Assembly (NCBI GenBank): GCA_902625215.1
Contig: CACOAO010000012.1
Span: forward strand, 1 to 64,000
DNA: 64,000 nucleotides
Direction: 5' to 3'
Origin: an uncultured SAR116 cluster alpha proteobacterium
Lineage (GTDB): Bacteria > Pseudomonadota > Alphaproteobacteria > Puniceispirillales > Marisalimonadaceae
Shown here: positions 1,376 through 45,450 of the stretch, piece after piece
Position numbering within the stretch: position 1 is the stretch's first letter
How the letters are laid out: each line of letters starts with the position of its first letter
Program-made: the position numbers and the translations under genes
Notes under the pieces: generated by a model
Databases searched by the model: none
The model's input: the letters and a program-made list of their open reading frames with translations, nothing else
What the model was told of the DNA's origin: nothing

Positions 1376-2416
1376 TTAAACACACTCTAACATTTCAATG
1401 TCCTGACCACTTTTCAATCTTTTTAATCCAATTGATTTTACCTTGATATCATTCCTTGCAGTCATCCACGCATCACTAGAAATCAAGATTTGATTTGAAT
1501 CTGACATATCACATATATTGAACGCCATATTAACTGTTTTTCCTAAAATATCAAATTGAACTGTTTTTGTTCCAACTGTTCCTGCAACAAGAGACCCTGA
1601 GTGAATTCCTAAGTGAAGATCCCAGGGCATTGAAGACGTGTTTGCAATCTCTCGTAATTTGTAACAGCAGTCTACACACGATTTTACAGGAGAAATTGCA
1701 TGGGATGACAAACCAGCAACTGCAACAATAGCATCTCCAACAGTTTTAATTTTTTCTAACCCAAAATCCTCAAAAGCTTTTTCAAATTTTTCGACAAGAT
1801 CCTGTAATGTTTCGACTACTAATTCAGGATCATTTTTTTCGCAAAATGATGTAAATCCAACTAAATCACATATTAAAATTGCTACATCATCATATCTTCT
1901 AGACCTTACCTTTCCAGATGACTGCAATTCATTAGCTACAGAAGTAGGCATCACTGTTTTTAAAATTTGTTGAGACCGTTTTTTGTCTGTTTCGACTCTG
2001 TCCAAATAACTTTCTTCGGTATCTCTTAATCTTTTTTTCTCTAAGCTTGCTCCAACTCTTGCTTTAAGCAAAGTTCCATTAAAAGGTTTAGTTATGAAGT
2101 CGTCAGCACCATTTATAATGCATTCAGCTGCTGTTTCCACTTCATCAGAAGCTGTAACCATTATAACAGGAATAGATCTTTGTAGAGGGTCACCTTTCAA
2201 ATGTTTAAGAACCTCAAGACCACTCATATCTGGCATCATAAGATCTAAAAGTATTAAATCAAATTTGTTTTCTACAGCCATATCAAGAGCTAATTTGCCT
2301 CCCTCTGCTAAAAAGATATTTTTATAACCGTCCCTTTTTAACCTTCTTTCAAGGGTATATCTATTATCTTCAATATCATCAACAATTAGGATATTTGCGT
2401 CTTCTTTGTTAATCAT
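1376..2416 (-). CDS. Response regulator with class III nucleotide cyclase output
   Basis: This 346-residue protein is an N-terminal receiver domain (about 8-125), a helical linker (125-170) and a class III adenylate/guanylate cyclase domain (about 172-340). The receiver has the acidic pair D13/D14, phospho-acceptor D58 (LILLDLMMP), T88 and K110. The cyclase has both metal aspartates, D184 (CDLVGFT) and D228 (KTVGDA), and the purine-selecting pair K224 and D289, which predicts ATP as substrate. The transition-state arginine normally four residues after the conserved Asn is absent: N296-M-A-F-N300 stands where N-x-x-x-R is expected. It may be inactive, slow, or need a heterodimer partner. The start overlaps the upstream receiver gene by 8 bases, so the two are likely translationally coupled. 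It is the last gene of the signalling cassette. Confidence 0.9.
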   Translation of the reverse strand: MINKEDANILIVDDIEDNRYTLERRLKRDGYKNIFLAEGGKLALDMAVENKFDLILLDLMMPDMSGLEVLKHLKGDPLQRSIPVIMVTASDEVETAAECIINGADDFITKPFNGTLLKARVGASLEKKRLRDTEESYLDRVETDKKRSQQILKTVMPTSVANELQSSGKVRSRRYDDVAILICDLVGFTSFCEKNDPELVVETLQDLVEKFEKAFEDFGLEKIKTVGDAIVAVAGLSSHAISPVKSCVDCCYKLREIANTSSMPWDLHLGIHSGSLVAGTVGTKTVQFDILGKTVNMAFNICDMSDSNQILISSDAWMTARNDIKVKSIGLKRLKSGQDIEMLECV

Positions 2417-2783
2417 TTTTAATACCCAACTGCTCTGATATTTTAGATAATAACCTATTAATATCTACTGGTTTTGTATCATAATCATTACATCCACTAT
2501 CAAGTGCTCTTTGCTTATGTTCTTCCATCGCATGAGCTGATAGAGCAATTATTGGGATTGATTTAAGATCCTCGTTACTTTTAATATGTTTAGTAGCAGT
2601 CCATCCATCCATCTTAGGTAAACTTAAATCCATTAGGATAAGATCTGGTTTTTCTGTTGATGCCATCTCAACACCTTGCTCACCGTCTACAGCAATGATT
2701 ATATCAAAACCTTTTCTTTTTAATCGTCTGGATAACATATAAACATTATCCTCATTATCTTCTACGTACAAAATTTTTGTCAT
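2409..2783 (-). CDS. Single-domain response regulator (DivK/CheY-like)
   Basis: A 124-residue stand-alone receiver. It has acidic pocket E8/D9, phospho-acceptor D52 ([13 protein letters not shown]), S82 and K104 (DTKPVD). The LMDLSLPxMDGW pattern and SAHAM segment are typical of DivK-type receivers in alphaproteobacteria, which carry phosphoryl groups or regulate kinases rather than bind DNA. It overlaps the upstream hybrid kinase by 4 bases and the downstream receiver-cyclase by 8, so all three are likely made together. The simplest inference is that it relays phosphate within this cassette. The gene name divK is not assigned, because paralogues of this type are common. Confidence 0.9.
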
Positions 2784-5700
2784 TTGTTACCTCCTTCTTT
2801 TGAAGAAGCTTTAATTACATTACTTACCTCACTTACAATTGATGACAGAGTATCTTCACTTTTTTCAAGAATTTTCTGAACTTCCCCAGATAAAAATGAT
2901 TTTTCCTCCTCACTTAAATCTGCACCAGTTAACACTAAAATTGGAATAGAATTTAGGTTAGTTTCTCTTATTGATTTTAAAAACTCAAAACCGTTCATGA
3001 TAGGCATCATCAAATCCAATAAAATTAAGTCAGGTTTGATTTCTTCCTTTTGTAAAAGTAACATCCCAACTTTTCCATTTTCAGCCTCCATAATTTCTAC
3101 ATTCTGTTTTTCCAAAATTTCTTTTATTGTAAATCGCAGACTTTCATCATCTTCAATAATACAAATTTTTAAATTCTCTTTATCACCTGTCAAATTTCTG
3201 ATTGATTTCATTAGATATTCTTTTTGAATTGGTTTTGATAAAAAATCTGCTGCTCCTAATGAAAAACCTTTGTTTTTTTCATCTAATATCGAAGCCATAA
3301 TTACCGGAATATTTGAAACTTCAGGATCAGCTTTTAAAGTACGTAATACTGACCAACCATCCATTTCCGGCATAAGAATATCTAGAGTAATTGCATCTGG
3401 TTTAAGTTCTCTTGCTAAACGAATTCCGTCCTTACCATTCGGACTAATAATTACCTGGTATCCTTCTTTAGAAAGTTGTCTTTTCATTAACTCACTTACA
3501 GTAGGATCGTCATCAATAATTAAAATTGTTTTTCCAGAACTATTTTCTAGAGAAATAACGTTTTCAATAAGAGAACCTGTTTCTTTATTTAAATTTTTAA
3601 CACCTTCAGACGCACCTATAAAATCTGCCAAGAATGTTGCAGTAAAGGTTGTGCCTTTTCCTAACTCACTATTTACTATAACATCGCCGCCCATAAGTTT
3701 TGCAAGCTGTTTTGAAATAGTAAGTCCTAAACCTGTGCCACCATATTTTCTTGTTGTTGAACTATCAGCTTGTACAAATGAATTAAATAATCTAGACATC
3801 TGCTCATCTGACATACCAATTCCAGTATCACTCACATCTATAGAAATTAAGTCACCACCGTCACGTAAAATTTTGTTTACCCCAACAGTTATTTTTCCTT
3901 TTTCAGTAAATTTACAAGCATTAGAAATTAAGTTTAAAACAACTTGTTTAACCCTTGTTTGATCAGCAGTGACAAAATCAATTTCTGTTTTATAATCAAT
4001 TATTAATTTGTTATCATTCTTTTGAGCTAATGGTAATGATGTTTTCATTACATCATCCAAAATTTGGTTTAACTCGAAAGTTTCATTAAATAATTCAACT
4101 CTTCCTGCTTCAATTTTTGATAAATCTAATACATCGTTTATTAGTGTTAAAAGATGTTTGCCTGCATTAAAAACTCTATCAAGCGGCTCTTCAAAATCGT
4201 CTAAGCCATCATCTGCTGCATCTTCTTTTAACATCTCTGTTAAACCTATTATAGCATTTAGAGGTGTTCTTAATTCATGACTCATGTTTGCAAGAAATTG
4301 ACTTTTAGTCTGGTTCGCAGCATCTGCTTTTTCTCTTGCTACATCTAATTCAGTAATTGTTTTGTTTAATTCTTCTTCGCGTTTTTTTAATTCAGTAATA
4401 TTTGTAAAAATTGTAAAAGTACTATTATCATCTAATCTTGAATAGGTAGCATTCCAAAATGAACCATCATAAAACTCTGGCACATTAATTGTTTTTGTAC
4501 CAGTGAACGATTTCCTATTTTTAAAAGCATTTGAATAGTAATTTTCTTTTTCTTCTTCATTTTTAAACTTCATAAAATTGTACTTTTTATGTCTTTCCAT
4601 TTGCTCTTTAAAGGTAAGTCCAGGACGATAATCTTTAATACCAGCTTTAAAATGAATGTTGTGCGCATATTTATTACACATAACTAATTTATCATTTTTA
4701 TCCCAAAGAGAAATCCCATGAGGCATACTATCAATTGCGTCTTGCAATCTTTTTTCAGCATCTAAAGCTTGTTTTTCTTTTTCTTTTAAATCGGTGATAT
4801 CATCCATAATTTGAGTATAATTACCATCTGAAAGCTTTGTGAAAAAACCAGCGTAAATATTTCCATTAGTGTATTTAGTTTCAAACCGATTTATTCCTTT
4901 TAATTTGTGTATGTCATTTTCACGTTTCTCTATAAATTCGCTTTGTGACATACCCTTCGGCACAACTAATTCACCACTTTTAATAATCGATTTTACGAGT
5001 TGTTTTCTTGTCACTCCATCTTTAAGATCAAAATCGTGTAAATTTTTCATATTTTTAATGGCTGTATTATTAGCGTGAATTAATTTATGATTTTTGTCCC
5101 ACAACATAAAAACATTTGGTATTTCGTCTACAGCATCAATAAGTTGTTGCATGTCTTTTTCTTTTCTTTTCATATCTGAAATATCAGTCCATACCTGAAG
5201 AAACCCTCCATCATCCAGTCTATTAGTAATTCCCAACATAGTAATATCATTTTCAAACATTGTTTCAAATTTTGTTTCTTTCTGAGCTTGAGAATATGAC
5301 TTTAACCTTTCTTTAAGCCATTCATTTGGTTTTACACCTTTTGGTGGAATTATTTTTTTGTTTTTAATAGAGTGACTAACCATTTCTTTTCTGGAGATCC
5401 CTGGTTTTAGATTAAAACCAAGATTTTTTTGAAAGTCTCTTGAGGCTTTATTTGCCATTATCAAATTGTCAGACTGATCCCAAAGATAAATTGAACTTGG
5501 TGTTAATTCAATTGCATCACTAAGTCGTTTCAACGATTTCTCTTGTTCTTTTATTTCAGTTACGTCAGTGTAAAATTGTAATGTACTACCATCAGGCAAA
5601 ACAGCAGTATTGACTAAATAACTATTTCCATCACCAAACAGATTCTCTAGGGTCCTCTGTTCAACCATAAACTTTGGATTATCAAATTCTTTTTGTCTTT

Positions 5701-7459
5701 TGTATAAATATTGTTTTTTGCTCATTCTATTTGGCAATTGAATATATCCCCGTGATATAGAATGTTTAATAATTTCAATTCTTGAGATACCTGATTTAAA
5801 TTGTATGCCATATTTTTTTTCTTTTGATTTCACAACTTTATTTGCCATAAGCAATCTGTGATTTTTATCCCATAATATTACTGGAGCTGGCATGTTATCT
5901 ACTGCATCACTGAGTTGCTTTAACGATTTTTCATTTTCTTTTAATTTTGTAATATCAGTAATAATTTGCAAAGTACCACCATCTGGTAGTCTTGAAGTAG
6001 ACACAAATTCGACACCACCATCATTAATAAAAGTTTCAAAAGATTCTTGACCTTTAAGAGCGTCAAATTTTTTAATCCTATTATCTATGAACTTTTTTGG
6101 AGTAATGCCTTTTGGTGGGTTAACAAGACCTTTTTTTAATACATTTTGTACCATTTTGATCCTTGAAGCTCCAGGGGACATATCAAAACCCCAAGACTTT
6201 TGTTTTTCTTTAGCAATTTTGTTCGCCATTACTAATTTGTGATTTTTATCCCATAACATTACACTATTTGGCAAAAAATCAATCGCTTCTACCAACTGTT
6301 TAAATTGATTTTCTCTTTGCTTTATTTCAGTAATGTTAGTAACAATTTGCAGCGTACCCCCATCTGGAAGTCTCTTAGAAATAGCCAATGAAGAATTTCC
6401 ACTTGAAAATTCTACCTCTCTTCTCTCTTCATCTACTAATTTATCAAATGATTTTTTTCGTTCTAATATAAAGTCTTTCGTAGATTGTCCTTTTTTTGGA
6501 AGAAAAACACCTTTTTTTACACCATTTTTAACCATCTCTAGCCTTGATGATCCAGGTCTTAAATCAAAACCAAGTTTTTTTTGATCATCTCTAGAACTTT
6601 TATTTGCTGTTATGAGGTTGTTATTTTTATCCCATAACATCAGAGTGTTTGGCATTACATCAATGGCGTCTGCTAGTTGTTTTAATTGTTCTTCTTTATT
6701 TTTTAAATCAGTGATTTCACTAAAAATACTTAAAAACGACCCATCATCTAATCTTTTATCAATTACATACCAGGTTTTACCATTCTCCAAAAAAACTTCC
6801 CTATAATTTGATTCAACTTTTTTTCTGTATTTTTTTCTTCTTTTGATTTCACTTTCTATTGTTTCTCCCTCAGGAATTTTAAATATTGAACTTGAAAGTT
6901 GTGCTCTTACCATGTCTTCATATGCTAAACCCTTTGTAAATTTACAATCTACATCCCATTGTTCGTGCAACTCATCAGCTTTTGCATTCGCAAAAATTAA
7001 TTTATCATTTTCATCCCAATATTGTATGATCAAAGGTACATTTTCTATGGCACTAGCCAACCTTTTTCTTTCAAGATCTTGTTCGATAATATCTGTAACA
7101 TTTGTCATTACAGTTAAAATATAACCAGATGGAGTTAGATTATCTCTAATCTGTAACCATCTTCCAGTTGGCCCTTTAATAACGTAATGTGATGCAACTT
7201 TTGTTGTTTTAACTTTTTCATAATTTACTATTCTTTGATTAATTTCGTCTTCTGGAAGAATTTTTAATTTTTTGAATTTTTTCATTCGGTCATATACATT
7301 TTCGCCTATTTCATAATTGACATTCAATCTGTTAAATCTTGTGAACATTGTTTTGTTTGCAAAACAAAGATTATCTTTTTGATCATACAGCAATATTCCT
7401 GTTTCATCGTTATCAAATGCTTCAATTAATACATTGGCAATATCTAAATCTTTAAGCAT
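2780..7459 (-). CDS. Giant soluble hybrid histidine kinase with eight PAS-like units and two receivers
   Basis: A 1559-residue sensor kinase with no membrane segment or signal peptide, so probably cytoplasmic. Residues 1 to about 1030 hold eight tandem PAS-like units (PAS_7-like) with a period near 127-132 residues. Each has a signature like [13 protein letters not shown] near its start and ends in TDITELK plus a helix. A short coiled coil leads to HisKA with phospho-acceptor H1061 ([11 protein letters not shown]). HATPase_c follows, with N box [10 protein letters not shown]1 DTGIGM and G2 YGGTGLGL. Receiver 1 has D1360 ([12 protein letters not shown]) and receiver 2 has D1482 (LILLDLMMP). 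There is no histidine phosphotransfer domain. Stop and start overlap the downstream receiver gene by 4 bases. An AAGGA lies about 10 bases before the ATG. The ligand of the PAS units is unknown. Confidence 0.93.
4390..7430 (-). repeat. Tandem repeat array encoding eight PAS-like units
   Basis: Eight direct repeats of about 380-395 bases lie inside the hybrid kinase gene. On the plus strand they show as a recurring block resembling ATTTTTATCCCATAA (codons for LWDKN) near 4690, 5090, 5480, 5870, 6250, 6630 and 7015, with a more divergent copy near 7380. The middle units (3 to 7) are most alike, sharing LWDKN, ANK, PGxSR, PPKG and DGGTLQxxTDIT motifs, while the first, second and last differ more. 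This pattern suggests expansion of the centre by internal duplication. It is a protein-domain repeat, not a CRISPR array. Confidence 0.85.
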
Positions 7460-7477
7460 GTTGGAGGTCCTTTTATT

Positions 7478-7816
7478 TTACATTTTCTTTTCAACTGATC
7501 TCAATCTGTAAGATAAGGCTTTAAGACAACCTTTTACAAAAACATCTGAATTATTTACTCTTTTATCAAACTCGTCTTTTGTTATTGAAATAATTTCACT
7601 TTCAACCAAGCATCTAGCTGTAGCCATTCTAAGTTCGTTTTCTATAACTCCCATCTCTCCAAAAAGTTCATTCTCTTGAATTATAAAATTTGGTTTATTA
7701 GTTTCGTTTGTTGGTAGAAAAATCCCTACAGATCCCTTAACCAATAAGTACATTTTGTCGGGAAGTTCACCAACCTTGAATACACTTTGATTTTGATTAA
7801 ATTTAGTTTTTTCCAT
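7478..7816 (-). CDS. Stand-alone cyclic nucleotide-binding domain protein
   Basis: A 112-residue protein that is almost entirely one cNMP-binding (CRP-type) domain. The glycine turn VKGSVGIFL is at about 27-34. The phosphate-binding cassette is L-F-G-E-M-G-V-I-E-N-E-L-R-M-A-T-A at 51-67, with E54 (ribose contact) and R63 (phosphate contact) both kept. There is no DNA-binding, kinase or membrane domain, so it must act through a partner. The start shares one base with the stop of the upstream hydrolase gene (TAATG arrangement), and the gene ends 18 bases before the hybrid kinase. Between a hydrolase and a kinase-cyclase set, it probably senses the nucleotide made by a nearby cyclase. That role is inference. 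Confidence 0.85.
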   Translation of the reverse strand: MEKTKFNQNQSVFKVGELPDKMYLLVKGSVGIFLPTNETNKPNFIIQENELFGEMGVIENELRMATARCLVESEIISITKDEFDKRVNNSDVFVKGCLKALSYRLRSVEKKM

Positions 7817-8598
7817 TAAAAATCTATAACCTCATTTTCAGATGCAAATTTAACTTTATTATTAATAATTCTATTTTCTATATCTTTTAATTCTTTATCA
7901 TCTCTTGATGGTGAATGATGAGAAATAAGAAAGTTTTTAACATCAATTTTATCTGCTAAAGCAATACCCTGTTCAATACTAGAATGCCCCCAGCCTCTTT
8001 TTTCTGGTAACTCACTGTCTAAGAACATACCATCCCAGATGATAGTTTCTGAATGATCACAAAAATTAATTAATTTTTCTTCTTGAATACCTTCATATTC
8101 ATTATCTAATAGATAACAAAACTTTTTATTATCACTCTTAATACTATATCCAGAGCAATTTCCAGGATGATTTAGATCAATAGAATTTATATTTAAATCT
8201 TCAAAATCATTCACAACTTTTTCAAAATCCAGGAAATTAAATCTATTGATAATTTCAATAAAATTTACTGGGAAATAAGGATTACTAAAGTAAGAACTTA
8301 AATTGTTGTAGGTAACAGTTTTGTTAGAGTGAGCTGATGTTATAGTAATTTTTTTAGTTGTTTTAGTATCAAAATTATTAAAGGCTAGTCCTTGGATATG
8401 ATCATGATGGAAATGTGAAATAAACAATATAGTTTCAAGGTCGTTTGAAAAATTAACTTTTGAAAACCCAGAACCACAATCGAAAATCAGTTGATATTTT
8501 TGAGTTTTAATTTCTACACAAGGAGTGTTGCCGCCAAAAATTAAATTATTTTGACTTGGATTTGGTGTTGATCCTCTTACCCCATGATTAATAATCAT
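7816..8598 (-). CDS. Metallo-beta-lactamase-fold hydrolase
   Basis: A 260-residue MBL-fold protein without signal peptide. The dinuclear metal site is complete: H62-x-H64-x-D66-H67 (SHFHHDH), H144 (NHPGN), D165 (LLDNE) and H227/H228 (SHHSPSRDD), with the family block GWGHSS at 202-207. The N-terminus GVRGSTPNP and FGGNTPC is typical of the subgroup resembling RNase Z and cyclic-nucleotide phosphodiesterases. The gene directly precedes a lone cNMP-binding domain and is linked to two cyclases, so a cyclic-nucleotide phosphodiesterase role is plausible. The sequence does not prove this; another phosphodiester or thioester substrate is possible. It is the first gene of the five-gene signalling cassette. 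Confidence 0.82.
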   Translation of the reverse strand: MIINHGVRGSTPNPSQNNLIFGGNTPCVEIKTQKYQLIFDCGSGFSKVNFSNDLETILFISHFHHDHIQGLAFNNFDTKTTKKITITSAHSNKTVTYNNLSSYFSNPYFPVNFIEIINRFNFLDFEKVVNDFEDLNINSIDLNHPGNCSGYSIKSDNKKFCYLLDNEYEGIQEEKLINFCDHSETIIWDGMFLDSELPEKRGWGHSSIEQGIALADKIDVKNFLISHHSPSRDDKELKDIENRIINNKVKFASENEVIDF

Positions 8599-8687: not shown

Positions 8688-10772
8688 TCAATTCAGTGTA
8701 ATTAGACCGTCTACTGCTACAATTCCTTCATATTCTTTTCTTACTATAATTGGATTAATCTCAGCTTCCTTAACTTCTTTAAAGTAAGCAAATTTAGACA
8801 TTTTCACTATTGCAGTAGCAATAATATTTATATCTGCTTCGGGTAGTCCTCTATATCCAGTTATAGTCACAAGACTTTTGACTTCCCTAATCATTTTTTT
8901 AGCTTCAGGGATATCAACCGGTGCCATCCTTATTGATTTATCATTATATATCTCTGATAAAATACCACCAGAACCTATTAAAACAATTGGTCCAACTAAT
9001 TCGTCGACTCTGTAACCTAAAATTATTTCAGCAATTCCTTTTTCCATTTTTTGAATAAGAAATTTTTCGTCACTACTTTTTATTTTTAACTTCTGAAATA
9101 CATTTGATAACTTTTTAAAACTAATTTTCAGCTCTTCTAAATTTTTTATATTTAATTCAACACCTCCGGTTTCTGTTTTATGAAGTACCTGATTTGATAA
9201 AACTTTCATTACTACAGGAAAACCTATTTGAGAACTATACTCTATTGCTTGTTTTTCGTTAAAAATTACTTTGTAATCTACAATTTCAATTCCTATATCT
9301 TTAAATATTTCTAATGCTTCTTCTTCAGACAAATTCTTGGATATGTTTTTGTTTAGTTTTTTGGAAATTTTACTTGAGTGATTGTTTAAAATTGTTGATT
9401 TGACTGGATTTTTGGTATTTAAAAAGGTCTTTACACTCTCCGCACAAGACTCGGGCGTTCTAAAACAAGCAATATTATTTTTATGTAGTAAATTTAGTGC
9501 TTCTGGAGCATCAGGGGCAACATACACAGCCAACGGCTTTGGGTAATTTGCCCACTTTAATAAAGGTTCAACTGCTTGTTCTGGTCTAAATTTAGCAGAC
9601 GAGCCAACAACCATCACAACTACATCACAATTTTTATTTTGCATCATCTGACTAATTACTTCGGTAACGATTTCTGGTTTTGTCCCAGCAATAGTCAAAT
9701 CAACTAATTTATTGTTGTTATATGGAATATTATTGTCTTGCATAATTTTCTGTATTGGCAGACCAGGGTCTACTATTTCAATATCACTGCCTGATAGGTT
9801 TTCTACTACCATAGCACCCCCACCACCAGTTGTAGTAACTATACCCACTCGTTTGGTTTCAGATTTTTTCTTTTTTCTAAATAAATTAGGAATTTCGATT
9901 AATGTTTCAAAAATTTCTACTCTAGCAATACCATGATAATTTATGAATGCGTTGAAAGCATCATCATTTCCTGCAATTGCGCCTGTATGAGATTTAGCTA
10001 ATTGTTTACCTAATTCAGACTTTCCTAGTTTGTAACATATTATTTGTTTTCCAGCTGCATGTGCCATTTTTGACATCTCTGCTACTTCATAACTGTTTCT
10101 TAATGTTTCTAAAAATAATATTATGGTTTCGGTGTTTGGGTCATTTACTAGCATTTTACCAATTTCACCAACGGAAAGATCAGACTCATTTCCTACAGAA
10201 ACCAACTTAGCAAAACCTATACCTCGAGAGTATCCATGCGCCAACAAAGCTCCAATAAGGCTTCCACTTTGAGAAATAACACTAAGACTTCCCTTTTTTA
10301 AATCTTTCAGCTCAAGCATAGCGTTTGCACTTAAAATGACATTATCTGAAATATTTATAAGACCAATACTATTTGGTCCTAATATTCTTAAACCACCTTT
10401 TTTTGCTATTTTAAAAATATGTTTTTCTAACACATTACCTTTAGATCCAGATTCACTGAAACCTCCAGACAGAATTGTTGCGCATCTAACTTTTTTTGAT
10501 ACAGCATCTCTAATAGCTTCAAAAATTTTATTACCATCAACAGCAATAAAGATATAATCAACTTGTTCATTAATTGATTTTAAATTTGGATAACATTTTA
10601 ATCCAAAAATTTCTTCCCTATTTGGATTTACAGGAAATATTTTTCCTTTATAACCATGCGATACTAAAAACCTTTGAGCTCGTGAACCAGTTTTTTTAGG
10701 GTCAGCGGAAGCGCCTATTATTGCAACTGATTTTGGGTTAAAAAAAGATTGAGAAAAAGAAACATCTACCAT
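8688..10772 (-). CDS. Acyl-CoA synthetase, ADP/NDP-forming (acetyl-CoA synthetase type)
   Basis: A 694-residue single-chain enzyme that interconverts an acyl-CoA, ADP and phosphate with the free acid, ATP and CoA. In order: CoA-binding Rossmann domain (FNPKSVAIIGAS, about 10-20), succinyl-CoA-ligase-like domains with the phosphohistidine motif AKSHTGA (H262), and a C-terminal ATP-grasp domain (GFPVVMKVLS, then LIGSGGILSE). The chosen ATG lies 10 bases after the acyl-CoA dehydrogenase stop. An in-frame TTG 60 bases upstream would overlap that gene by 50 bases and add residues not seen in the family. Pairing with an acyl-CoA dehydrogenase suggests breakdown of an organic or branched-chain acid; the substrate is unknown. 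Confidence 0.88.
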   Translation of the reverse strand: MVDVSFSQSFFNPKSVAIIGASADPKKTGSRAQRFLVSHGYKGKIFPVNPNREEIFGLKCYPNLKSINEQVDYIFIAVDGNKIFEAIRDAVSKKVRCATILSGGFSESGSKGNVLEKHIFKIAKKGGLRILGPNSIGLINISDNVILSANAMLELKDLKKGSLSVISQSGSLIGALLAHGYSRGIGFAKLVSVGNESDLSVGEIGKMLVNDPNTETIILFLETLRNSYEVAEMSKMAHAAGKQIICYKLGKSELGKQLAKSHTGAIAGNDDAFNAFINYHGIARVEIFETLIEIPNLFRKKKKSETKRVGIVTTTGGGGAMVVENLSGSDIEIVDPGLPIQKIMQDNNIPYNNNKLVDLTIAGTKPEIVTEVISQMMQNKNCDVVVMVVGSSAKFRPEQAVEPLLKWANYPKPLAVYVAPDAPEALNLLHKNNIACFRTPESCAESVKTFLNTKNPVKSTILNNHSSKISKKLNKNISKNLSEEEALEIFKDIGIEIVDYKVIFNEKQAIEYSSQIGFPVVMKVLSNQVLHKTETGGVELNIKNLEELKISFKKLSNVFQKLKIKSSDEKFLIQKMEKGIAEIILGYRVDELVGPIVLIGSGGILSEIYNDKSIRMAPVDIPEAKKMIREVKSLVTITGYRGLPEADINIIATAIVKMSKFAYFKEVKEAEINPIIVRKEYEGIVAVDGLITLN

Positions 10773-10782
10773 AGTTATAAAA

Positions 10783-11934
10783 TCATTTATTTGACCTTTG
10801 TGAAAATCTCCGTTCAAAGATATCCTCGGCAATTCTATTTTTCATCATTTCAGTTGATCCACCTGCGATTTGCCATCCTCTAGATTTTCTGAAACAATAT
10901 TCAACCAATGACTCTTGTGAATACCCAGTACCACCCATAACTTGCATTGCCTCATTACTTATTTCAAATCCAGCTTTATTACAAAATGCTTTAGCAATTG
11001 ATGTTTCTTGAGAAGAAGGGAACCCACTATCTGCATTTATTGCAGCTCTATATAACAATAATCTTCCAGCTTCAATTTGAATTTTCATTTCTGAAAACTT
11101 CCATTGAATCCCTTGAAATTCGCAAATTTTCTTTCCAAATTGTTCTCTTGTTAATGCATAATCTTTAGCAACATTAAAAGCAAACTCACCAAGCGCAAGT
11201 GATCTAGCGGAGTTTCCAATTCTTTCTGCATTAAATCCTGAAATTTGTTTTTTAAATCCACCAGGTCCTAATAAAACATTTTCTTCAGGAATATAAACAT
11301 TATCAAAATATAATGCACACCATTCTTCACCATTAGTATATTTTGATGATTTTCCTTTTGAAAAACCTTGCATTGATGTATCCATTATGACTGATCCAAT
11401 ACCATTAATTCCTTCATGATATCTTACATAAATCAAAAAGATATCCGCATCTGGTGAGTTACTGGTAAAGACTTTACTGCCGGATACTCTAAATCCTTTG
11501 CCATCTTGAACAGCTTTAGTTGTCAAATCAGTGACTGCTGAACCTGCATTAGGCTCAGTCATACCTAAACCAATTACCATTTCTCCATTTAACAATTTTT
11601 TTAAATATTTTTCCTTTTGATAATCAGTTGCATACTCTGCAAAAGTCCTTATTGGACCAAAACTTCCTGCTTGGATAACGTCAGCACTTCTTGGACAAAT
11701 TAAGGCAACTTGCTCTATTGCAAGAACAGCATCCATTAACTTACCTCCCTGCCCCCCATCTTTCTCAGGAAGTGTAATTCCCATCAAGCCATTATTAGAA
11801 AATAATTTTGCAATTTCTTTTGGAAATAGAGGATCATGGGCACGTCTAAGATTATCCTCTTTTAAATGTTTTTCTGCAAGACTTCTAACGGAGTTTTGAA
11901 ATACTATTTGTTCTTCTGTTAAATTAAATTCCAT
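10783..11934 (-). CDS. Acyl-CoA dehydrogenase family flavoprotein
   Basis: A 383-residue, FAD-dependent acyl-CoA dehydrogenase, the usual length. Seen are the flavin-region motif LGMTEPNAGSAV (123-134), helix motif LTREQFGK (261-268) and QVMGGTGYSQESLVEY (331-346). The medium-chain catalytic Glu position is occupied by small residues in QIAGGSTEMM, but E237 in FNAERIG matches the alternative catalytic Glu used by isovaleryl- and long-chain-type enzymes, so activity is expected. It lies between the cyclase-hydrolase fusion (26 bases upstream) and the acyl-CoA synthetase (10 bases downstream), all on one strand, so co-transcription is likely. Confidence 0.9.
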   Translation of the reverse strand: MEFNLTEEQIVFQNSVRSLAEKHLKEDNLRRAHDPLFPKEIAKLFSNNGLMGITLPEKDGGQGGKLMDAVLAIEQVALICPRSADVIQAGSFGPIRTFAEYATDYQKEKYLKKLLNGEMVIGLGMTEPNAGSAVTDLTTKAVQDGKGFRVSGSKVFTSNSPDADIFLIYVRYHEGINGIGSVIMDTSMQGFSKGKSSKYTNGEEWCALYFDNVYIPEENVLLGPGGFKKQISGFNAERIGNSARSLALGEFAFNVAKDYALTREQFGKKICEFQGIQWKFSEMKIQIEAGRLLLYRAAINADSGFPSSQETSIAKAFCNKAGFEISNEAMQVMGGTGYSQESLVEYCFRKSRGWQIAGGSTEMMKNRIAEDIFERRFSQRSNK

Positions 11935-11960: not shown

Positions 11961-13355
11961 TTATTTTTTAAGGAAGTTTTTTAACTCCTCTTTGAAGATT
12001 GGCCAACCTTCATCGCCTTCAAGAATTACGTGATTATTACCATTTAATGGTACAAATTTAGAATTTTTAATATTGGCAGCCATAAATTTACTCTCTGAAA
12101 TTGGAACTCTTGAATCATTTTTATTATGAAAAATTAAAGTTGGTATATCTAATAATGGTAATAATTCAGAAACATCTATTTGGTCATTAGTTGATTGAAT
12201 TCTAACTGCATTTTTGGCAGATGTCGAAATTTTCATTATATTATTAAATGAATCCATTTGCTCTTTCGTACCATCTGGAATCATAGTAGATGTAAAAAAT
12301 TGTCTGAATGCAGGATTTTCATTGTCCCATCCATTAAGTATCATATTTTTTTCTAACTCTATTTTTTGATCAAAATCAGCATTTCCCCTTTTTGCTCTTC
12401 CTCTTGCAAAACCTCCAGACAATATTAAGTGCGTAACCTTGTTAGGATTTTTATATGCATAAGCTATTGAAACTGCACATCCTTGTGATACACCAAAAAT
12501 TGGGAATTTATCAATGTTTACTGCATCTACTACTGCTTGCATATCATCTACAAAACAATCAAAATTTATGTTTTCAGGATTAAGATCTGAAACACCATTG
12601 CCTCTTTGGTCAAACCTGTAAAACGTATAGTCTTTTGCTAAATGCCTGTACATATGAGTCCAGACAGGACTTCTCCAGTCATGTTCTAAACTACTCATAA
12701 AATTTGGTGCTTTTAATATTGGTGGTCCATTTCCAATACTTGCATAAGCAATAATAGTTCCATCAAATGAACTACAAAATCTTGTTTTCTGATTAGCCTC
12801 AGTTAATAAAAGATTTTCTTTACTATCTTTTATATCATCTTCATGGACATTAATTTTGAATACTTGAACTTTTTGAGAAATATTTTTTAAGAATTGCTCT
12901 CCTATATTTTCTATATCTAAGGATTTTAAACTTTTGATACTTTGATACACATCATTTGTAATACAAATATTTCCTGCGTCTGCTATTGATTCTAATCTAC
13001 TTGCAATATTAACAGTGTTTCCAAAAATATCGTCATTATCTAGAACAACGTCACCAATGTGAATGCCAATTCTATATCTTATTTTCTTATCATTGGTTTT
13101 CTCTGATTCATTTTCATAAATTCCTTTTTGTATAGATATACTACTATCAACCGCTTCTAATGCACTAGGGAAAATAGCTAAGAATCCATCTCCAGTTGTC
13201 TTTATTATTTCACCATTATAATTTTCTATTTCCGGTTTAATTATTGTATTTAATTGATTTTTTTGTCTTGAAAGTAAATTAATTTCATCTTCTTCAATTA
13301 ATCTTGAAAAACCCACCATGTCTGCAGCCACAACTGCTAATAATTTTCTATCCAC
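11961..13355 (-). CDS. Class III adenylate cyclase fused to an alpha/beta hydrolase
   Basis: A 464-residue two-domain protein. Residues 1-165 form a class III cyclase with metal aspartates D12 (AADMVGFS) and D56 (KTTGDGF), purine-selecting K52 and D109, N116 and the catalytic R120 (TVNIASR), so it looks competent and ATP-specific. Residues about 190-464 form an alpha/beta hydrolase with nucleophile S290 (FGVSQGCA), acid D414 (HNKNDSRVP) and H442 (NGNNHV). No membrane segment or secretion signal is seen. Such fusions occur in other alphaproteobacteria, and their hydrolase substrates are mostly unknown. It heads the minus-strand run; the gene after it is an acyl-CoA dehydrogenase. The hydrolase half may sense or process a small ligand that tunes cAMP production. 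Confidence 0.9.
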   Translation of the reverse strand: MDRKLLAVVAADMVGFSRLIEEDEINLLSRQKNQLNTIIKPEIENYNGEIIKTTGDGFLAIFPSALEAVDSSISIQKGIYENESEKTNDKKIRYRIGIHIGDVVLDNDDIFGNTVNIASRLESIADAGNICITNDVYQSIKSLKSLDIENIGEQFLKNISQKVQVFKINVHEDDIKDSKENLLLTEANQKTRFCSSFDGTIIAYASIGNGPPILKAPNFMSSLEHDWRSPVWTHMYRHLAKDYTFYRFDQRGNGVSDLNPENINFDCFVDDMQAVVDAVNIDKFPIFGVSQGCAVSIAYAYKNPNKVTHLILSGGFARGRAKRGNADFDQKIELEKNMILNGWDNENPAFRQFFTSTMIPDGTKEQMDSFNNIMKISTSAKNAVRIQSTNDQIDVSELLPLLDIPTLIFHNKNDSRVPISESKFMAANIKNSKFVPLNGNNHVILEGDEGWPIFKEELKNFLKK

Positions 13356-13455: not shown

Positions 13456-13481
13456 TTACATTATTATGTTAAACTAATGAT

Positions 13482-13557
13482 GCCAGGGGTGCAAAATTTT
13501 TTGCTGAGAAATAAACCCTTAAAACCTGATCTGGTTAAGACCAGCGGAGGGAGTTGC
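13482..13557 (+). promoter_or_regulatory. TPP riboswitch (THI element)
   Basis: The aptamer hallmarks occur in order: AGGGGTGC, CTGAGA, AACCCTT, AACCTGATCTGGTTAA, ACCAGCGGAGGGA. These match the conserved P2/J2-3/P3 and P4/P5 parts of the thiamine pyrophosphate aptamer. It lies 113 bases before thiM, the expected target. No U-tract terminator follows, so control is probably at translation. The leader contains CCCCTCT (13623-13629), which can pair either with GGAGGG in the aptamer (13546-13551) or with the thiM ribosome-binding GAGG (13658-13661). Confidence 0.93.
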
Positions 13558-13623
13558 TAATTTATTTTTAAACATGATTATATTTAAGCAGTATAATTTA
13601 AATTAAAAAATTTAACTAATGTC

Positions 13624-39695: not shown

Positions 39696-40727
39696 TTACT
39701 CAAAAACCTTTATAAAATAATATCTTACGACAACTCCAACAACAGCAGCTACAGGTAATGAGATTAATACTCCAACAAACCCAGATAAATAAGCGCCTGT
39801 CATTAGAGAAAATATTATCCAAATTGGATTTAATTTTATTGCATCTCCCACTAATTTTGGAGTTAAAAAATAACTTTCTAATAACTGGCCAAAGATGAAA
39901 ATAGAGAATATTAAAAATAATTGAGGTGATATCCCAAATTGTAATAATCCTAATATTACTGTAAGCCCACCACCTATAACAGAACCTAAATAAGGTATAA
40001 ATGAAATTATACCTGCGAAAATTCCTAACAATATTCCAAACTTTAAACCGATTATGAATAAACCTAAACTATAAATCATAGATAATGTCAAACAAACAAG
40101 ACCTTGACCTCTTATAAATTTTGATAAAACTTCATCTATATCTTTTATCAAAATAGGAAAGTCTGTAAAATTAGACTTATCAGCAATGCCATATATAAAA
40201 ACCTTAATTTTGTTAAATTCTAAACTTAAATAAAAACTAATAACAATTATTACTATCATATTAAAAAAACTGTTAATAAATTGAATGCTATTACTTATTA
40301 TTTCATCACTAGTATTTATTAAGCCCTGACTGAAAGGTTTGAATAAAGTTGAATAGTCAACTGTTTTAATTTTTTCAGTAAATAAATATTTAGTATTAAA
40401 GTCTTTAAGGAAGTTTTCAATTTCTGTTAAATACCCTGGTAATAATAAAAATAAATTTTGGATTTGATAAATAATAATTGGCAAAATTAAAATTAAGATA
40501 GATATAATACATATCACAAAAACCAAAATGGATAAAAAACTTGAGAAAGTTTTATTGAAATATTTATCAAAGTAAACCTTAACTGGATTCGTTAAATAAG
40601 CTATTATAAAAGCTATAAAAAAAGGAATAATAACTTCAAACAAATACAAAATAAAAAAAATTATTAAAAGAAAAAAAAGAAATAAATTAAATTTTTTTTC
40701 TGTAAATTTTTTGGTAAAAGCCAACAT
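39696..40727 (-). CDS. AI-2E family transporter (PerM-like)
   Basis: A 343-residue membrane protein of the AI-2 exporter / PerM family, with about eight helices. The N-terminal helices LFLFFLLIIFFILYLFEVII and IIPFFIAFIIAYLTNPV are followed by the family C-terminal block FIPYLGSVIGGG and PKLVGDAIKLNPIWIIFS. Family members export autoinducer-2, sodium/protons or unknown solutes. The position between a DUF2066 gene and hdaA is typical for alphaproteobacteria and suggests a housekeeping role. Confidence 0.88.
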   Translation of the reverse strand: MLAFTKKFTEKKFNLFLFFLLIIFFILYLFEVIIPFFIAFIIAYLTNPVKVYFDKYFNKTFSSFLSILVFVICIISILILILPIIIYQIQNLFLLLPGYLTEIENFLKDFNTKYLFTEKIKTVDYSTLFKPFSQGLINTSDEIISNSIQFINSFFNMIVIIVISFYLSLEFNKIKVFIYGIADKSNFTDFPILIKDIDEVLSKFIRGQGLVCLTLSMIYSLGLFIIGLKFGILLGIFAGIISFIPYLGSVIGGGLTVILGLLQFGISPQLFLIFSIFIFGQLLESYFLTPKLVGDAIKLNPIWIIFSLMTGAYLSGFVGVLISLPVAAVVGVVVRYYFIKVFE

Positions 40728-40753
40728 TAAAACCTCTATTCAAACTCATTCTA

Positions 40754-42097
40754 TTATTTTTTAAGTACATATTGCCAAGAATTTAAATCCATAAAATTTA
40801 ATTTTTTTTCGAAAGCAGCATGAAAAAATGATTTTTTGTTACCCATAAATTTCACTAAGATCCTTCCTTGTGAGTTTGTTATGGAAATAATCTTTACTTC
40901 AATTACAAAAGGTAAGTTTTCTAATATGTGTAAAACATATGGCCAAATACTAGTGTCTTTTTGACTTACAAGAATATTTTTCTCATATTTTAATTTTTTT
41001 ACAGTATTAAAGGAACTTCTACTAATATTCTCAAAACTATTTTTAGTTTTTTTGTCATAGAATATTGTTTCTTTTTGTATTTTTATAAATCCTTTATCTT
41101 TAAATCCAGAAGTTGATTTAACTTTAATTGTTTTATCATTGAATAATAGAACCTTTTCTAATTTGGTAGAATTTATTGTTGTTATTGGAATCATGAGATC
41201 AACTTCATTATAAACACCAGTATCAATTAAATTATCTTTCTTCCAATTTGTTTCAATAGATTTTATAATATTATTTACCTCATTTTCTAAAAGGTTTTTG
41301 TCTAAGTTATAAAATGATGATGTTTTTTTTAGAGAAATTGTCTTCCTATAAATGGTTGACTTAAATTCTCCACTTTTATTATAAAATTTAGAATATGTTG
41401 ATAGGTAAGTTTTACCATCTGTCATTAAAATTGGTTCTGCAACTACCAAAATAAGTGCGTTAGTCTTTTCATTATTTACCAATTTATTAATAAAATCTTT
41501 ATTAGACTTTTTCAAAATATTAGCTGTTAAAATTCTATTTAAGCTAAAATTACCCTTAGCAAGTTTTAATTTAACTAATCCGTCTAACATTTTTAATTTT
41601 TTTTTCCAATTTATATACCAATGATCTTTCTCATCCCACAAAACAATACCTCTTGGTCCTTTAAATATAGGTAGAACCGCTATAGGTTCTCTATATGTTT
41701 CTGCATATCCCAAACTATTTTTTCTAAAAAAATTAATAACCAAATTTCTATTAAAACATATATCAAAGTTTGCTAAAAATCGTTTATCACTGTTAGCTTC
41801 TTTATTTATTTTTAAAAAATCAACTAATGAAGAAATATCTGTTTTATCAAAATTTAAATCTTTATTTTCTACAGTTAACCTATTAATGAGTCTTTTAAAT
41901 CCCATTAATTTAGATTTGTACTCAGCTTCAGATCTGGCTTCGTTAATGGAATCTTTTGTTAAATCAACACTTATGTTTTTAATATAAAATGATGGATTAG
42001 AACAATCTTGATCAGTAAATGCTAACAATTTTGAGCTTAGAAAAAAAATTTTTAAAAATATTAAAAATTTAATTTTTAGGAGTTCAATAAACATCAA
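40754..42097 (-). CDS. DUF2066 domain protein, probably secreted
   Basis: A 447-residue protein with a hydrophobic N-terminus (IELLKIKFLIFLKIFFLSS) that looks like a signal peptide or anchor. The mature part starts YIKNISVDLTKDSINEARSE and continues with AVLPIFKGPRGIVLWDEKD, matching the DUF2066 family of proteobacteria. No enzymatic motif is visible and the function is unknown. Its constant place beside purM and the perM-hdaA pair may simply reflect old synteny. It diverges from purM over a 125-base A/T-rich region. Confidence 0.75.
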   Translation of the reverse strand: MMFIELLKIKFLIFLKIFFLSSKLLAFTDQDCSNPSFYIKNISVDLTKDSINEARSEAEYKSKLMGFKRLINRLTVENKDLNFDKTDISSLVDFLKINKEANSDKRFLANFDICFNRNLVINFFRKNSLGYAETYREPIAVLPIFKGPRGIVLWDEKDHWYINWKKKLKMLDGLVKLKLAKGNFSLNRILTANILKKSNKDFINKLVNNEKTNALILVVAEPILMTDGKTYLSTYSKFYNKSGEFKSTIYRKTISLKKTSSFYNLDKNLLENEVNNIIKSIETNWKKDNLIDTGVYNEVDLMIPITTINSTKLEKVLLFNDKTIKVKSTSGFKDKGFIKIQKETIFYDKKTKNSFENISRSSFNTVKKLKYEKNILVSQKDTSIWPYVLHILENLPFVIEVKIISITNSQGRILVKFMGNKKSFFHAAFEKKLNFMDLNSWQYVLKK

Positions 42098-42222
42098 AAT
42101 TTTACCTACTTTTTTTGATTGATATGTGCTTATAACATCGATATATCAAATATAAATTGTTAAATGTAAACATTATATATAAATCTAATTACAATAACTT
42201 CAAAATTAAGAAAATAACTTAC

Positions 42223-43299
42223 ATGTCAAAAAGTAAAAATAAATCTGCAAAATCAACTATTACTTACAAAGATTCTGGAGTTGACATCGATGAAGGTAAC
42301 AAGTTTATATCAGATATAAATTATATCACGAAATCCACATCTAATGAAGGATCAATTGGAGAATTAGGTGGATTTGGAGGATTATTTGATCTAAAAAAAT
42401 GTGGTTTTATAGATCCTATACTAGTTTCAAGCACTGATGGTGTTGGAACAAAGTTAAAATTAGCTATTGAAACTAAGTCATATTTTAATTTAGGTATTGA
42501 TTTAGTGGCTATGTGTGCAAATGACGTGTTAGCTCAGGGAGCAAGACCTCTTTTTTTTATGGATTATTATGCTACTGGAAAGTTGGACAAATCAGTAGCA
42601 TTGGAGGTTATTAAGGGTATTACAGAAGGTTGTATACAATCAGGTTGTGCACTTATAGGCGGAGAAACTGCTGAGATGCCAGGGCACTATAAGAAAAATG
42701 ATTTTGATATTGCTGGATTTTGTGTGGGAGCAGTAGAAAGACAAAATATTTTTAATAGAAATTCTGTTGTAAAAGGTGACTGCGTTATTGGTTTATCTAG
42801 CAGTGGCGTTCATTCAAATGGTTATTCTTTAATAAGAAAAATATTAGAAGTTAATTGTATAAATATTTTTGAAAGATGCGAATTTGATAAAATTAATAAT
42901 CTCGCAGACATTCTAATGAAACCTACACTCCTTTACACAAAAGCATTTTTAGAAGCAACAAAAAATAATAAAGTAAAATCAATAAGTCATATAACTGGAG
43001 GTGGTTTAATTGATAATCCTCCAAGAGCATTTAACAAAAATCTTACACTTAAGTTTGACATGAAAAACTTTGAACTTCCCCCATTATTTAAATGGCTTAA
43101 AGAAAAAGCTAATATATCACTATTTGAATTAGCAAAAACTTTTAATTGTGGTATTGGTTTTTTAATTTTTGTAGATAGAAAAGATGCTGAAGCAATGATA
43201 AATGATATTAATAAAATAGGTTATAACGCTTTTTTAATTGGATCTATAATTGAAAATGACTTAAATAAAAATGTTGTTTTTGATGGTTGGAACTTTTGA
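42223..43299 (+). CDS. purM: Phosphoribosylformylglycinamidine cyclo-ligase (AIR synthetase)
   Basis: A 358-residue enzyme of purine synthesis that closes the imidazole ring of AIR using ATP. Family blocks are STDGVGTKLKLA, CANDVLAQGARPLFFMDY, GGETAEMPGHY, HSNGYSLIR and HITGGGLIDNPPRAF. ATG at 42223 is chosen; an in-frame TTG 66 bases upstream would add residues unlike the family. In many alphaproteobacteria purN follows; here the next gene is the cytochrome oxidase peptide. Confidence 0.96.
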   Translation: MSKSKNKSAKSTITYKDSGVDIDEGNKFISDINYITKSTSNEGSIGELGGFGGLFDLKKCGFIDPILVSSTDGVGTKLKLAIETKSYFNLGIDLVAMCANDVLAQGARPLFFMDYYATGKLDKSVALEVIKGITEGCIQSGCALIGGETAEMPGHYKKNDFDIAGFCVGAVERQNIFNRNSVVKGDCVIGLSSSGVHSNGYSLIRKILEVNCINIFERCEFDKINNLADILMKPTLLYTKAFLEATKNNKVKSISHITGGGLIDNPPRAFNKNLTLKFDMKNFELPPLFKWLKEKANISLFELAKTFNCGIGFLIFVDRKDAEAMINDINKIGYNAFLIGSIIENDLNKNVVFDGWNF

Positions 43300-43328
43300 C
43301 ACAGTAATTAAATAAAAAAGGATTTAAA

Positions 43329-43457
43329 ATGGCTAATAAAATCGATAAAGAAACCAAAGAACACAAAGAATTTTATGAAAATTTCTTAAAATTTACAACT
43401 TACAGTACCATAATAGTTATAGCAATTGTTGCGCTAATGGCAATCTTTCTTGTTTAA
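43329..43457 (+). CDS. aa3-type cytochrome c oxidase subunit IV
   Basis: A 42-residue peptide with a hydrophilic charged N-terminus (MANKIDKETKEHKEFYENFL) and one C-terminal membrane helix (TIIVIAIVALMAIFLV). The pattern H-x-x-x-Y/F-x-x-F-L-K-x-T-x-x-x-T matches the small alphaproteobacterial aa3-oxidase subunit IV (COX4_pro_2). AGGA at 43319-43322 lies 6 bases before the ATG. It stands apart from any oxidase operon, between purM and ndk, 29 bases after the purM stop. It converges on ndk. Confidence 0.85.
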   Translation: MANKIDKETKEHKEFYENFLKFTTYSTIIVIAIVALMAIFLV

Positions 43458-43464
43458 TAAGAAA

Positions 43465-43884
43465 TTAAATTAATTCTATATTTGCGAAAAAGAATGTAAT
43501 CTCTGCATTAGCATTTTCAAGACTGTCTGATCCATGAACAGAATTTGCCTCAATACTTTCAGCAAACTCATTTCTAATAGTTCCTTCTTCAGCTTCTTCT
43601 GGATTAGTTGCTCCCATGATAATTCTATTTAATTTTACAGCATTTTCACCTTGCAAAACTTGAACAACAACTGGACCTGAAATCATAAAGTCAATCAAAT
43701 CATTGTAAAATGGACGATCTTTATGAACTTCGTAAAATTTTTCTGCCATAGATCTGGTTAGTTGCAGTCTTTTTTGTGCTATTATTTTCAATCCAGATTT
43801 TTCAAATTTAGCATTAATTAAACCAGTTAAATTTCTTTTTGTTGCATCAGGTTTAATAATTGACAATGTTTTTTCAATAGGCAT
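43465..43884 (-). CDS. ndk: Nucleoside diphosphate kinase
   Basis: A 139-residue enzyme that balances nucleoside triphosphate pools by ping-pong transfer through a phosphohistidine. The catalytic H117 is in ANSVHGSDS, with K11 (IIKPDA) and the [14 protein letters not shown] block all present. Length is normal. It lies 40 bases downstream of pepA on the same strand. Confidence 0.97.
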
Positions 43885-43924
43885 GGTTAAAACTCCAATT
43901 TAAGGTTCAATATCTATTAATTAT

Positions 43925-45388: not shown

Positions 45389-45435
45389 AATTTATCCTTT
45401 AATTCAAATAGAATTATTGTATTAATCTAAATAAG

Positions 45436-45450
45436 TTATAGTACTATAAT
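45436..45450 (+). promoter_or_regulatory. Palindrome with perfect -10 hexamer between pepA and lptF
   Basis: TTATAGTACTATAA (45436-45449) is a 14-base perfect palindrome. It overlaps TATAAT (45445-45450), a consensus -10 element facing lptF. A weak -35 match, TTAATC, lies 17 bases upstream (45422-45427). It could be an operator, or a two-way promoter serving both genes. Confidence 0.4.

Follow-up and report, generated by a model that had tools for sequence, protein, structure and literature searches.

The locus described here raises the question whether five closely packed genes, each belonging to a familiar signalling family, act together as one cyclic-nucleotide pathway. They lie on the minus strand at positions 1376-8598 of the window, by which we mean the whole stretch of 64,000 nt that was analysed (positions 1-64,000, forward strand, of contig CACOAO010000012.1, assembly GCA_902625215.1), from an uncultured SAR116 cluster alpha proteobacterium. 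Its nearest named relatives are SAR116-cluster alphaproteobacteria; the genome (G000) comprises 2.0 Mb with an estimated completeness of 88.8%, and the window sits on a 69-kb contig. A preliminary description of this DNA had proposed that the five products sense a signal, relay phosphate, make a cyclic nucleotide, bind it and perhaps destroy it. The gene set, the phosphodiesterase (PDE) signature of the hydrolase and the phosphate-binding cassette of the nucleotide-binding protein speak for such a pathway, whereas the division of the set into two separable modules, the phosphorelay and an arginine replaced in the cyclase speak against it in that simple form.

In the direction of transcription the genes encode a metallo-beta-lactamase (MBL)-fold hydrolase of 260 aa (7816-8598), a lone cyclic-nucleotide-binding domain (CNBD) of 112 aa (7478-7816), a hybrid histidine kinase of 1559 aa (2780-7459) with eight PAS units, HisKA, HATPase and two receivers, a single-domain receiver of 124 aa (2409-2783; Response_reg), and a receiver joined to a class III cyclase, of 346 aa (1376-2416; Response_reg and Guanylate_cyc). 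Open reading frame coordinates and Pfam, with the domains of every gene above the curated cut-off, agree with the five genes and families originally named. The junctions are -1, +18, -4 and -8 bases, the same numbers as first reported, then counted from the 3' end. Since a convergent PhyH gene (558-1373) lies downstream of the last gene and a gap of 89 bases separates the MBL gene from the stop of the gene upstream (8688-10832, acyl-CoA-synthetase-like by eye), the layout suggests a single transcription unit. The gene order recurs in other genomes with identical or similar short junctions, which is more than chance would give.

We consider it reasonably probable that this operon is a cyclic-nucleotide two-component circuit of two modules, with a PAS input end that is exchangeable between SAR116 species. 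In the first module, a cyclic mononucleotide would be hydrolysed by the MBL protein and bound by the lone CNBD, which would gate the hydrolase or report the nucleotide level, in trans, in the manner of the fused domains of GbpA and GbpB of Dictyostelium. In the second, the multi-PAS kinase would sum several inputs and phosphorylate both the lone receiver and the receiver-cyclase, probably directly and without a histidine phosphotransfer (HPt) protein; in the receiver-cyclase this would set the output of the cyclase. Synthesis, reading and destruction of the nucleotide would thus be encoded together. Recombination between SAR116 species would replace whole blocks of PAS units, and one output circuit would therefore be re-wired to different inputs.

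Conservation and modularity of the gene set

MBL hits longer than 600 bases were dereplicated at 95% to 123 representatives, 60 of which, the window included, have at least 38% identity to the MBL protein of the window; dereplicated counts are given because many of the named loci duplicate genomes with G handles. Of the 41 match rows in the genus outside the window, 36 had their neighbourhoods examined (the five omitted were fragments), as did the 69 named loci. Neighbour genes were detected with profiles built from these same loci, which are therefore not independent of Pfam's models; among ten neighbour proteins run against Pfam, seven cyclases and one CNBD protein were confirmed.

Within the genus, the MBL protein has a match in 23 of the 36 genomes other than the window's own (fragments only in G033 and G031). 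As these 13 misses compare with about 9 expected from summed genome incompleteness, the locus is nearly universal within the genus. The complete five-gene set was found in 18 of the 60 representatives, so that the first outcome named as a refutation in the preliminary description, a set that is not kept together in related genomes, does not apply. A CNBD gene on the same strand at most 100 bp downstream accompanies the MBL gene in 45/60 representatives, a class III cyclase lies within 8 kb in 47/60, and one or the other is present in 56/60; below 66% identity to the MBL protein of the window the corresponding numbers are 28/43, 30/43 and 39/43. Four five-gene sets with 52-56% MBL identity stand in other surroundings: in L094 and L095 the PhyH neighbour is kept (74%) and the upstream side is different, and in L096 and L098 the neighbours differ on both sides. 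The cassette is thus composed of ordinary parts of known families in a conserved, unusual combination. No description of the gene set, or of PAS-array exchange, was found among titles and abstract openings in the open PMC literature; subscription papers were outside the scope of this search.

The set consists of two modules, MBL plus CNBD, and kinase plus lone receiver plus receiver-cyclase. In the 100% complete genome G030, the MBL-CNBD pair is followed by PhyH, and kinase, receiver and receiver-cyclase are absent; in G029 the modules stand in reverse order (kinase-receiver-cyclase-MBL-CNBD). Other SAR116 members and Rhodobacteraceae have MBL-CNBD, or MBL alone, next to differently built cyclases, with lengths of about 294, 429, 564-610 and 720-817 aa; GAF/PAS or TPR domains are present in some of these. 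The second module also occurs independently: receiver-cyclases like that of the window were found in other alphaproteobacterial families (27/385 genomes at E<=1e-30, partial matches counted), and five of eight larger stretches around them contain the full kinase triad (L251, L252, L253, L255, L256), the remaining ones having an extra lone receiver (L254), no adjacent kinase (L257) or a cut end (L258). Neither an MBL nor a CNBD gene was found near the receiver-cyclase in any of the eight stretches (0/8; 9.7-19.5 kb each).

Two of these observations count against the pathway: the very separability of the modules, in view of the unit originally proposed, and four of the 60 representatives with neither CNBD nor cyclase (L064, L065, L066 and L132, of which L066 and L132 lie at contig edges). 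At 10-19 kb of L110 (similarly in L122, L123 and L125), an MBL gene has in its vicinity two cyclases and a long protein with a CNBD, the latter in L110 fused to HlyD domains, which suggests a link with secretion.

Phosphate route and cyclase residues

The kinase core (2810-4306) comprises HisKA (about 4103-4306), HATPase (about 3632-3964) and two receivers (about 3200-3526 and 2810-3160, from residue ranges, that of the second by eye). That the cassette relays phosphate was part of the preliminary description, and the kinase and both receiver proteins needed for this are present. Against a relay as first conceived stands the combination of a kinase with two receivers and no HPt in the cassette. 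Models for HPt (PF01627) and for ChpT-type proteins (PF10090) found none in the 89%-complete genome, the same models matching control genomes, and a classical four-step phosphorelay is therefore unlikely, even though the missing 11% of the genome could hide a phosphotransferase. Direct transfer from kinase to receivers is the simplest reading; other alphaproteobacteria, too, have a lone receiver at this place in the kinase module. In L039 and L055 the kinase gene is interrupted, for which sequencing error or decay could be responsible.

The cyclase domain of the cassette retains two metal-binding Asp, the Lys (in the motif KIKTVGD) and Asp of the adenine type, and an Asn. We take these to be, as in other class III cyclases, the metal Asp residues and the Lys/Asp pair for adenine, and we likewise assume that the Arg usually found four residues after the Asn stabilises the transition state. 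At that last position the window protein has Asn (N300, codon at 1517-1519, minus strand), as do all of the cassette cyclases (18/18, with L093 in two pieces and partly unread). Arg was present in 11/11 receiver-cyclases fetched from elsewhere, and in other cyclase domains with a letter at this position (n=62) Arg occurs 56 times and Lys six times. This substitution weighs against a circuit that makes its own nucleotide, since synthesis by the cassette cyclase, which had originally been put forward, therefore cannot be assumed; what stands of that proposal is the retention of the metal and adenine residues. The cassette cyclase may be weak or dependent on a partner.

It is accordingly conceivable, if rather less probable than the circuit outlined above, that the cassette cyclase has degenerated or shifted its product and acts as a phosphorylation-controlled regulator, and that the nucleotide is supplied by another cyclase. 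A candidate lies on the same strand upstream of the cassette, at 11961-13355, where a protein of 464 aa combines a class III cyclase with an alpha/beta-hydrolase and keeps the Arg, and a cyclase of similar size directly precedes the MBL gene in L089. The genome has three cyclase matches in all, so that the third could also be the source. Such a role for the cassette cyclase fits the contrast between the Asn of all cassette copies and the Arg of the eleven receiver-cyclases from elsewhere, but it has to be weighed against the preserved catalytic Asp pair, adenine Lys/Asp and Asn, and against the identity of the receiver-cyclase to that of the window (91-98% in 16 of the 20 loci compared and 74-79% in the remaining four), which is unlike a decaying pseudoenzyme. 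Whichever applies to the cassette cyclase, the cyclase-hydrolase is a possible outside partner of the two-module circuit. Its gene is syntenic in many loci of the genus, and other genes take its place in L071 and L076.

The MBL-fold hydrolase and the lone CNBD

The MBL protein matches Lactamase_B_2 (PF12706) with 40.4 bits (cut-off 27), and its metal motif S61-H-F-H-H-D-H67 fits the pattern [T/S]HXHXDH, with His as the second X. Residues H62, H64, D66, H67, H144, D165, H205 and H227 are invariant in an alignment of 100 sequences, and all of these except H205 are presumably metal ligands, with roles taken over from the superfamily; the full metal site noticed at the outset is therefore present. 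The AlphaFold2 model has a pLDDT of 97.3, and its Foldseek matches are ELAC1, 1zkp, YhfI, RNase Z, PhnP, Apyc1 and yeast PDE1, at 11-18% identity. A sequence search of solved structures placed 1zkp (1.5e-9) and YhfI (2.2e-9) first, followed by RNase Z; the E-value for Apyc1 was 0.004. Passages of PMC9293780 define the atypical class-II PDEs by the motif [T/S]HXHXDH, in which X is usually a hydrophobic or small residue, and place them in PF12706, close to RNase Z. YhfI is described as preferring cAMP and cGMP, and Apyc1 as having a broader range, in the relevant part of PMC9117128. By motif, predicted fold and context, the MBL protein is a candidate atypical class-II cyclic-nucleotide PDE; a phosphodiesterase is well supported, with a cyclic nucleotide as its putative substrate.

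The gene context extends beyond the genus. A profile search of the class with the MBL family gave matches in 182/385 genomes at E<=1e-10, from which a sample of 60 loci, one for each of 60 families, was drawn from the strongest among the matches listed; the controls were 40 regions from 40 genomes with hits, each on a long contig at a distance of about 45 kb. Among these matches, a cyclase lies within 8 kb in 11/60 loci versus 0/40 controls (Fisher p=0.003). In the controls, a receiver occurred anywhere in 7/40 regions, a CNBD in 1/40 and another MBL in 1/40. The link between MBL and cyclase genes is real. It is not general, because 49 of the 60 class-sample loci have no cyclase within 8 kb, some of the stretches being cut by contig ends. 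Of the 63 MBL representatives outside the subfamily, 19 have a receiver on the same strand within 2 kb upstream. Two of these 19, from two other alphaproteobacterial families, are fusions of receiver and MBL in single open frames (L179 and L188, 416 and 421 aa), where phosphorylation may act directly on the hydrolase. At 7043-11145 of L178, genes for a receiver, an MBL, a Methyltransf_24 protein and a cyclase stand in a row; by eye, the genes in the middle look similar in L148 and L193.

Several results weigh against a PDE coupled to a CNBD. Apart from the many class-sample loci that have no nearby cyclase, ELAC1, a tRNase Z, is the top Foldseek match, and the NCBIfam model for cyclic-nucleotide-degrading PDEs (NF041851) reaches 20.7 bits against a cut-off of 400, so that the MBL protein is related to this equivalog and not filed under it. 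RNase Z models of NCBIfam score higher than the PDE model, likewise below cut-off. Outside the subfamily, a CNBD gene lies within 300 bp downstream of the MBL gene in 1/63 representatives (L137), and just upstream in one (L151). These results leave some room for an enzyme that processes RNA or other diesters, on the RNase Z/PhnP side of the superfamily, and adjoins signalling genes for other reasons. We regard this as unlikely, in view of the co-location with CNBDs or with cyclases of different build in 56 of the 60 representatives, the excess of cyclases in the class sample and the two fusions to receivers among relatives; moreover, a similarity to RNase Z is what the cited passages report for the atypical class-II PDEs themselves. 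The genome contains three other PF12706 matches (one below cut-off), and the MBL protein is therefore not its only protein of this kind.

The CNBD protein matches Pfam cNMP_binding with 56.4 bits over residues 4-87. What we take to be the phosphate-binding cassette of such domains, G-E ... R-x-A, is preserved, with Gly, Glu and Arg in 45/45 relatives and the Ala in 44/45; the position following R-x-A is variable (T 29, D 6, N 5, G 3, S 1, E 1). Binding of a cyclic nucleotide may be expected on these grounds. Within its 112 aa Pfam gave no match to a helix-turn-helix (HTH) or to any other domain that could act as effector, membrane segments not being searched for with a predictor. Four open frames of the genome contain a CNBD (117, 146, 158 and 271 aa). 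The only match to HTH_Crp_2 in the 89%-complete genome is below cut-off, so that an output through a transcription factor is not evident, and a CRP-type regulator was rejected as the output. Plasmid relatives of the lone CNBD were also rejected, the two matches, in Azospirillum, being distant. For a functional coupling of CNBD and MBL protein the nearest precedent is the pair GbpA and GbpB of Dictyostelium, described in the pertinent part of PMC11988041 as MBL-type PDEs that are activated by their own cyclic-nucleotide-binding domains; by analogy, such a coupling may apply here in trans.

Composition of the PAS arrays

The N-terminal array of the kinase (4361-7429) contains eight PAS units of about 127 aa according to our own profile, in agreement with the number first counted; Pfam PAS_7 alone recognises six stretches. 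Units 1 to 8 lie at about 7058-7429, 6674-7060, 6293-6676, 5912-6295, 5522-5914, 5141-5524, 4766-5143 and 4361-4747. Other cassette kinases contain 6, 8, 9, 10, 11 or 12 units. Compared were 21 arrays from unbroken kinase genes, with 200 units in total; not included were six loci whose kinase genes are cut, interrupted or contain unread bases (L034, L036, L039, L054, L055 and L093), L042, which is close to L041, and named loci that repeat G genomes. Grouping at 70% identity or more gives 56 types, of which 25 are singletons, and grouping at 80% or more gives 83 types with 42 singletons. No two units within one protein reach 70% identity, and recent tandem duplication was rejected as the source of array length; so was a donor array elsewhere in the genome, since all seven PAS_7 matches are inside this kinase.

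The arrays are mosaics. Written as strings of 70% types, that of the window is KHOV.PYL, compared with CHMBIVPYL in L051, CHM.AQWE in L050, CJRBIFADZN in L048, KJH.B.IAQWE in L047, KJSBTUFADGE in both L041 and L052, KJSBTUFADGN in both L046 and L037, and X....OV.P.L in L098. The order of units is largely kept and their content is not tied to kinship. First and last units occur in all four combinations, at the 70% level (K or C with E or N) as well as at 80% (E or L with H or M); for first and second units (K or C with H or J) all four combinations are found at 70% only. Sharing of units rises weakly with the identity of the flanks (Spearman 0.22 for 120 pairs of 16 closer loci). A count of label changes on the tree of the flanking genes was not used as a test, as labels were not shuffled and only 9 of the 18 internal branches have good support.

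Silent sites of shared units were compared with those of the flanks, i.e. the genes for MBL, CNBD, lone receiver, receiver-cyclase and PhyH, to which the kinase core was added in the control pairs of L046 and in window-L098. Near-identical arrays provide a built-in control, PAS and flank identities agreeing for L046-L037 (0.86/0.85) and L046-L041 (0.81/0.82). In L052, eight units shared with L037, L046 and L041 have silent-site identities of 0.77-0.82, compared with 0.53-0.56 for the flanks and 0.43-0.44 for the kinase core; for L052-L037 the difference is 0.82 (n=211) versus 0.55 (n=251), with p=1e-10. Similar cases are L045-L035 (0.86 versus 0.63, p=2e-8) and L044-L047, with a single shared unit (0.77, n=30, versus 0.36). 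The reverse is seen in L050-L048 and L048-L047, with flanks at 0.89 and 0.85, which share no unit at 80% aa identity or more, the best pairs having 74-77%. Along the protein, L052 has 92-100% windowed identity to L041 up to about residue 1024 and 53-94% beyond, and it is low or gapped relative to L043 up to about residue 1400 and 89-97% identical beyond; such shifts occur near the borders of PAS units. In some pairs the kinase core has been exchanged as well (L040-L041, flanks 0.89, core 0.64). The units are conserved at their edges, with L-W-D close to the start and D-G and I-T-x-x-K close to the end, and variable in between, so that the edges could offer sites at which recombining copies pair.

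These results point to an exchange of sensor blocks between species inside one kinase gene. We lean, though by no great measure, towards seeing the SAR116 kinase as a natural sensor-swapping locus, in which PAS modules belonging to a common pool of ancient divergence are exchanged in blocks at the conserved unit edges, inside a fixed output circuit that links phosphorylation with synthesis and hydrolysis of a cyclic nucleotide; input specificity would thereby evolve through recombination of sensors that already exist, under selection for diversity, and not by point mutation or whole-gene transfer. Swapping would on this account carry a selective advantage. Some of the comparisons tell against so general an exchange. 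Among 109 genome pairs that share PAS units, 11 pass Bonferroni correction, of which five have an excess and six a deficit of PAS identity, and the pairs are not independent; in the deficit pairs, the shared unit types are older than the flanks. The best case for the window itself is L051, with five units at 0.56 versus 0.42 (p=0.016, uncorrected). Units common to the window and L098 are saturated at silent sites (0.37 versus 0.41), and any exchanges between these would therefore be old, not recent.

Such saturation, together with the order that shared types mostly keep, would also be expected if the arrays had diverged by lineage-specific loss from a single large ancestral array, with no transfer at all. 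This appears improbable, as loss does not account for shared units with silent-site identity significantly above that of the flanks in five pairs, for the occurrence of all four combinations of first and last units at both cut-offs, or for very close relatives that share no unit at 80%. Chimeric assembly may affect single genomes, but the same unit types recur in records of different projects, and units of one protein differ too much to be collapsed by an assembler.

An AlphaFold2 model of one PAS unit (pLDDT 93) has the PAS fold, and its ten best matches in the PDB are heme-binding PAS proteins (DosP, FixL, Aer2, FG214) at 12-17% identity. Heme is not claimed as ligand because of this low identity, because other PAS domains (PYP, NifL, BvgS and others; overall 8-18% identity) score close behind, and because there is no His among the conserved unit positions.

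Genomic surroundings and comparison with known systems

Outside the cassette, a TPP riboswitch aptamer above the Rfam gathering score, at 13475-13569 on the plus strand, precedes plus-strand genes that start from 13670; Rfam, at gathering scores, found no rRNA in the window. The G+C content is low at 40000-52000 (0.23-0.28 per 2 kb, compared with about 0.29-0.36 in the first 36 kb). In eight genomes (G003, G008, G013, G014, G016, G021, G022 and G026) contigs stop about 8.6 kb upstream of the MBL gene, as if a repeat or variable element were located there.

If the two-module circuit is correct, it would provide a conserved bacterial MBL-PDE/CNBD pair that resembles a split form of the cyclic-nucleotide-gated PDEs of Dictyostelium, and gene context would tie this MBL family to class III cyclases in some of the sampled alphaproteobacterial families; the interchangeable PAS arrays, joined to a single kinase core, would form a natural library. 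Summation of inputs by multi-PAS kinases, and replacement of sensory specificity in a marine lineage, would then become testable. That the five genes form an anti-phage (Pycsar-like) defence system is very improbable and was rejected: PADLOC models for PycC match the cyclase (48 bits) and those for TIR-CNBD effectors the CNBD (29 bits), both weakly, but the CNBD, which in Pycsar we understand to be fused to a TIR or membrane effector, was found here without an effector domain, a hydrolase and two-component input are present, the cassette has a fixed place in the genus, and PADLOC gives no hit for the MBL protein.

Among known systems, the atypical class-II PDEs (Rv1339, YhfI, CpdA of C. glutamicum) and Apyc1 share with the MBL protein PF12706 and the motif [T/S]HXHXDH, and its predicted fold is near YhfI and Apyc1; it differs from them in its low identity to the structures of these two (14-17%), its CNBD gene partner and its His as the second X. 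GbpA and GbpB likewise join an MBL-type PDE with cyclic-nucleotide-binding domains, two of these in the same chain, whereas the window has separate, overlapping genes and a single CNBD; the likeness is one of architecture. Two-component control of cyclic-nucleotide turnover is described in PMC11988041 for Dictyostelium RegA and the kinase-linked cyclase ACB, RegA being a class I PDE reached via the phosphotransfer protein RdeA; no HPt was found in the 89%-complete genome of the window. In Rhodospirillum centenum, the cluster RC1_3785-gcyB-gcyC-cgrA also joins cyclase-related genes and a cyclic-nucleotide-binding protein in an alphaproteobacterium, but its receptor is a CRP homologue, a transcription factor, and the text of PMC4681086 nowhere uses the word phosphodiesterase, whereas the window combines a lone CNBD with an MBL protein. 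The modules of kinase, lone receiver and receiver-cyclase in other alphaproteobacteria have the identical three-gene architecture, with receiver-cyclases 40-46% identical over their length, and differ in their canonical Arg and in having no MBL or CNBD gene in the fetched stretches. As to gain and loss of input domains in two-component kinases, a published account calls domain shuffling rare, whereas in the SAR116 kinase whole blocks of the array seem to have been exchanged between species.

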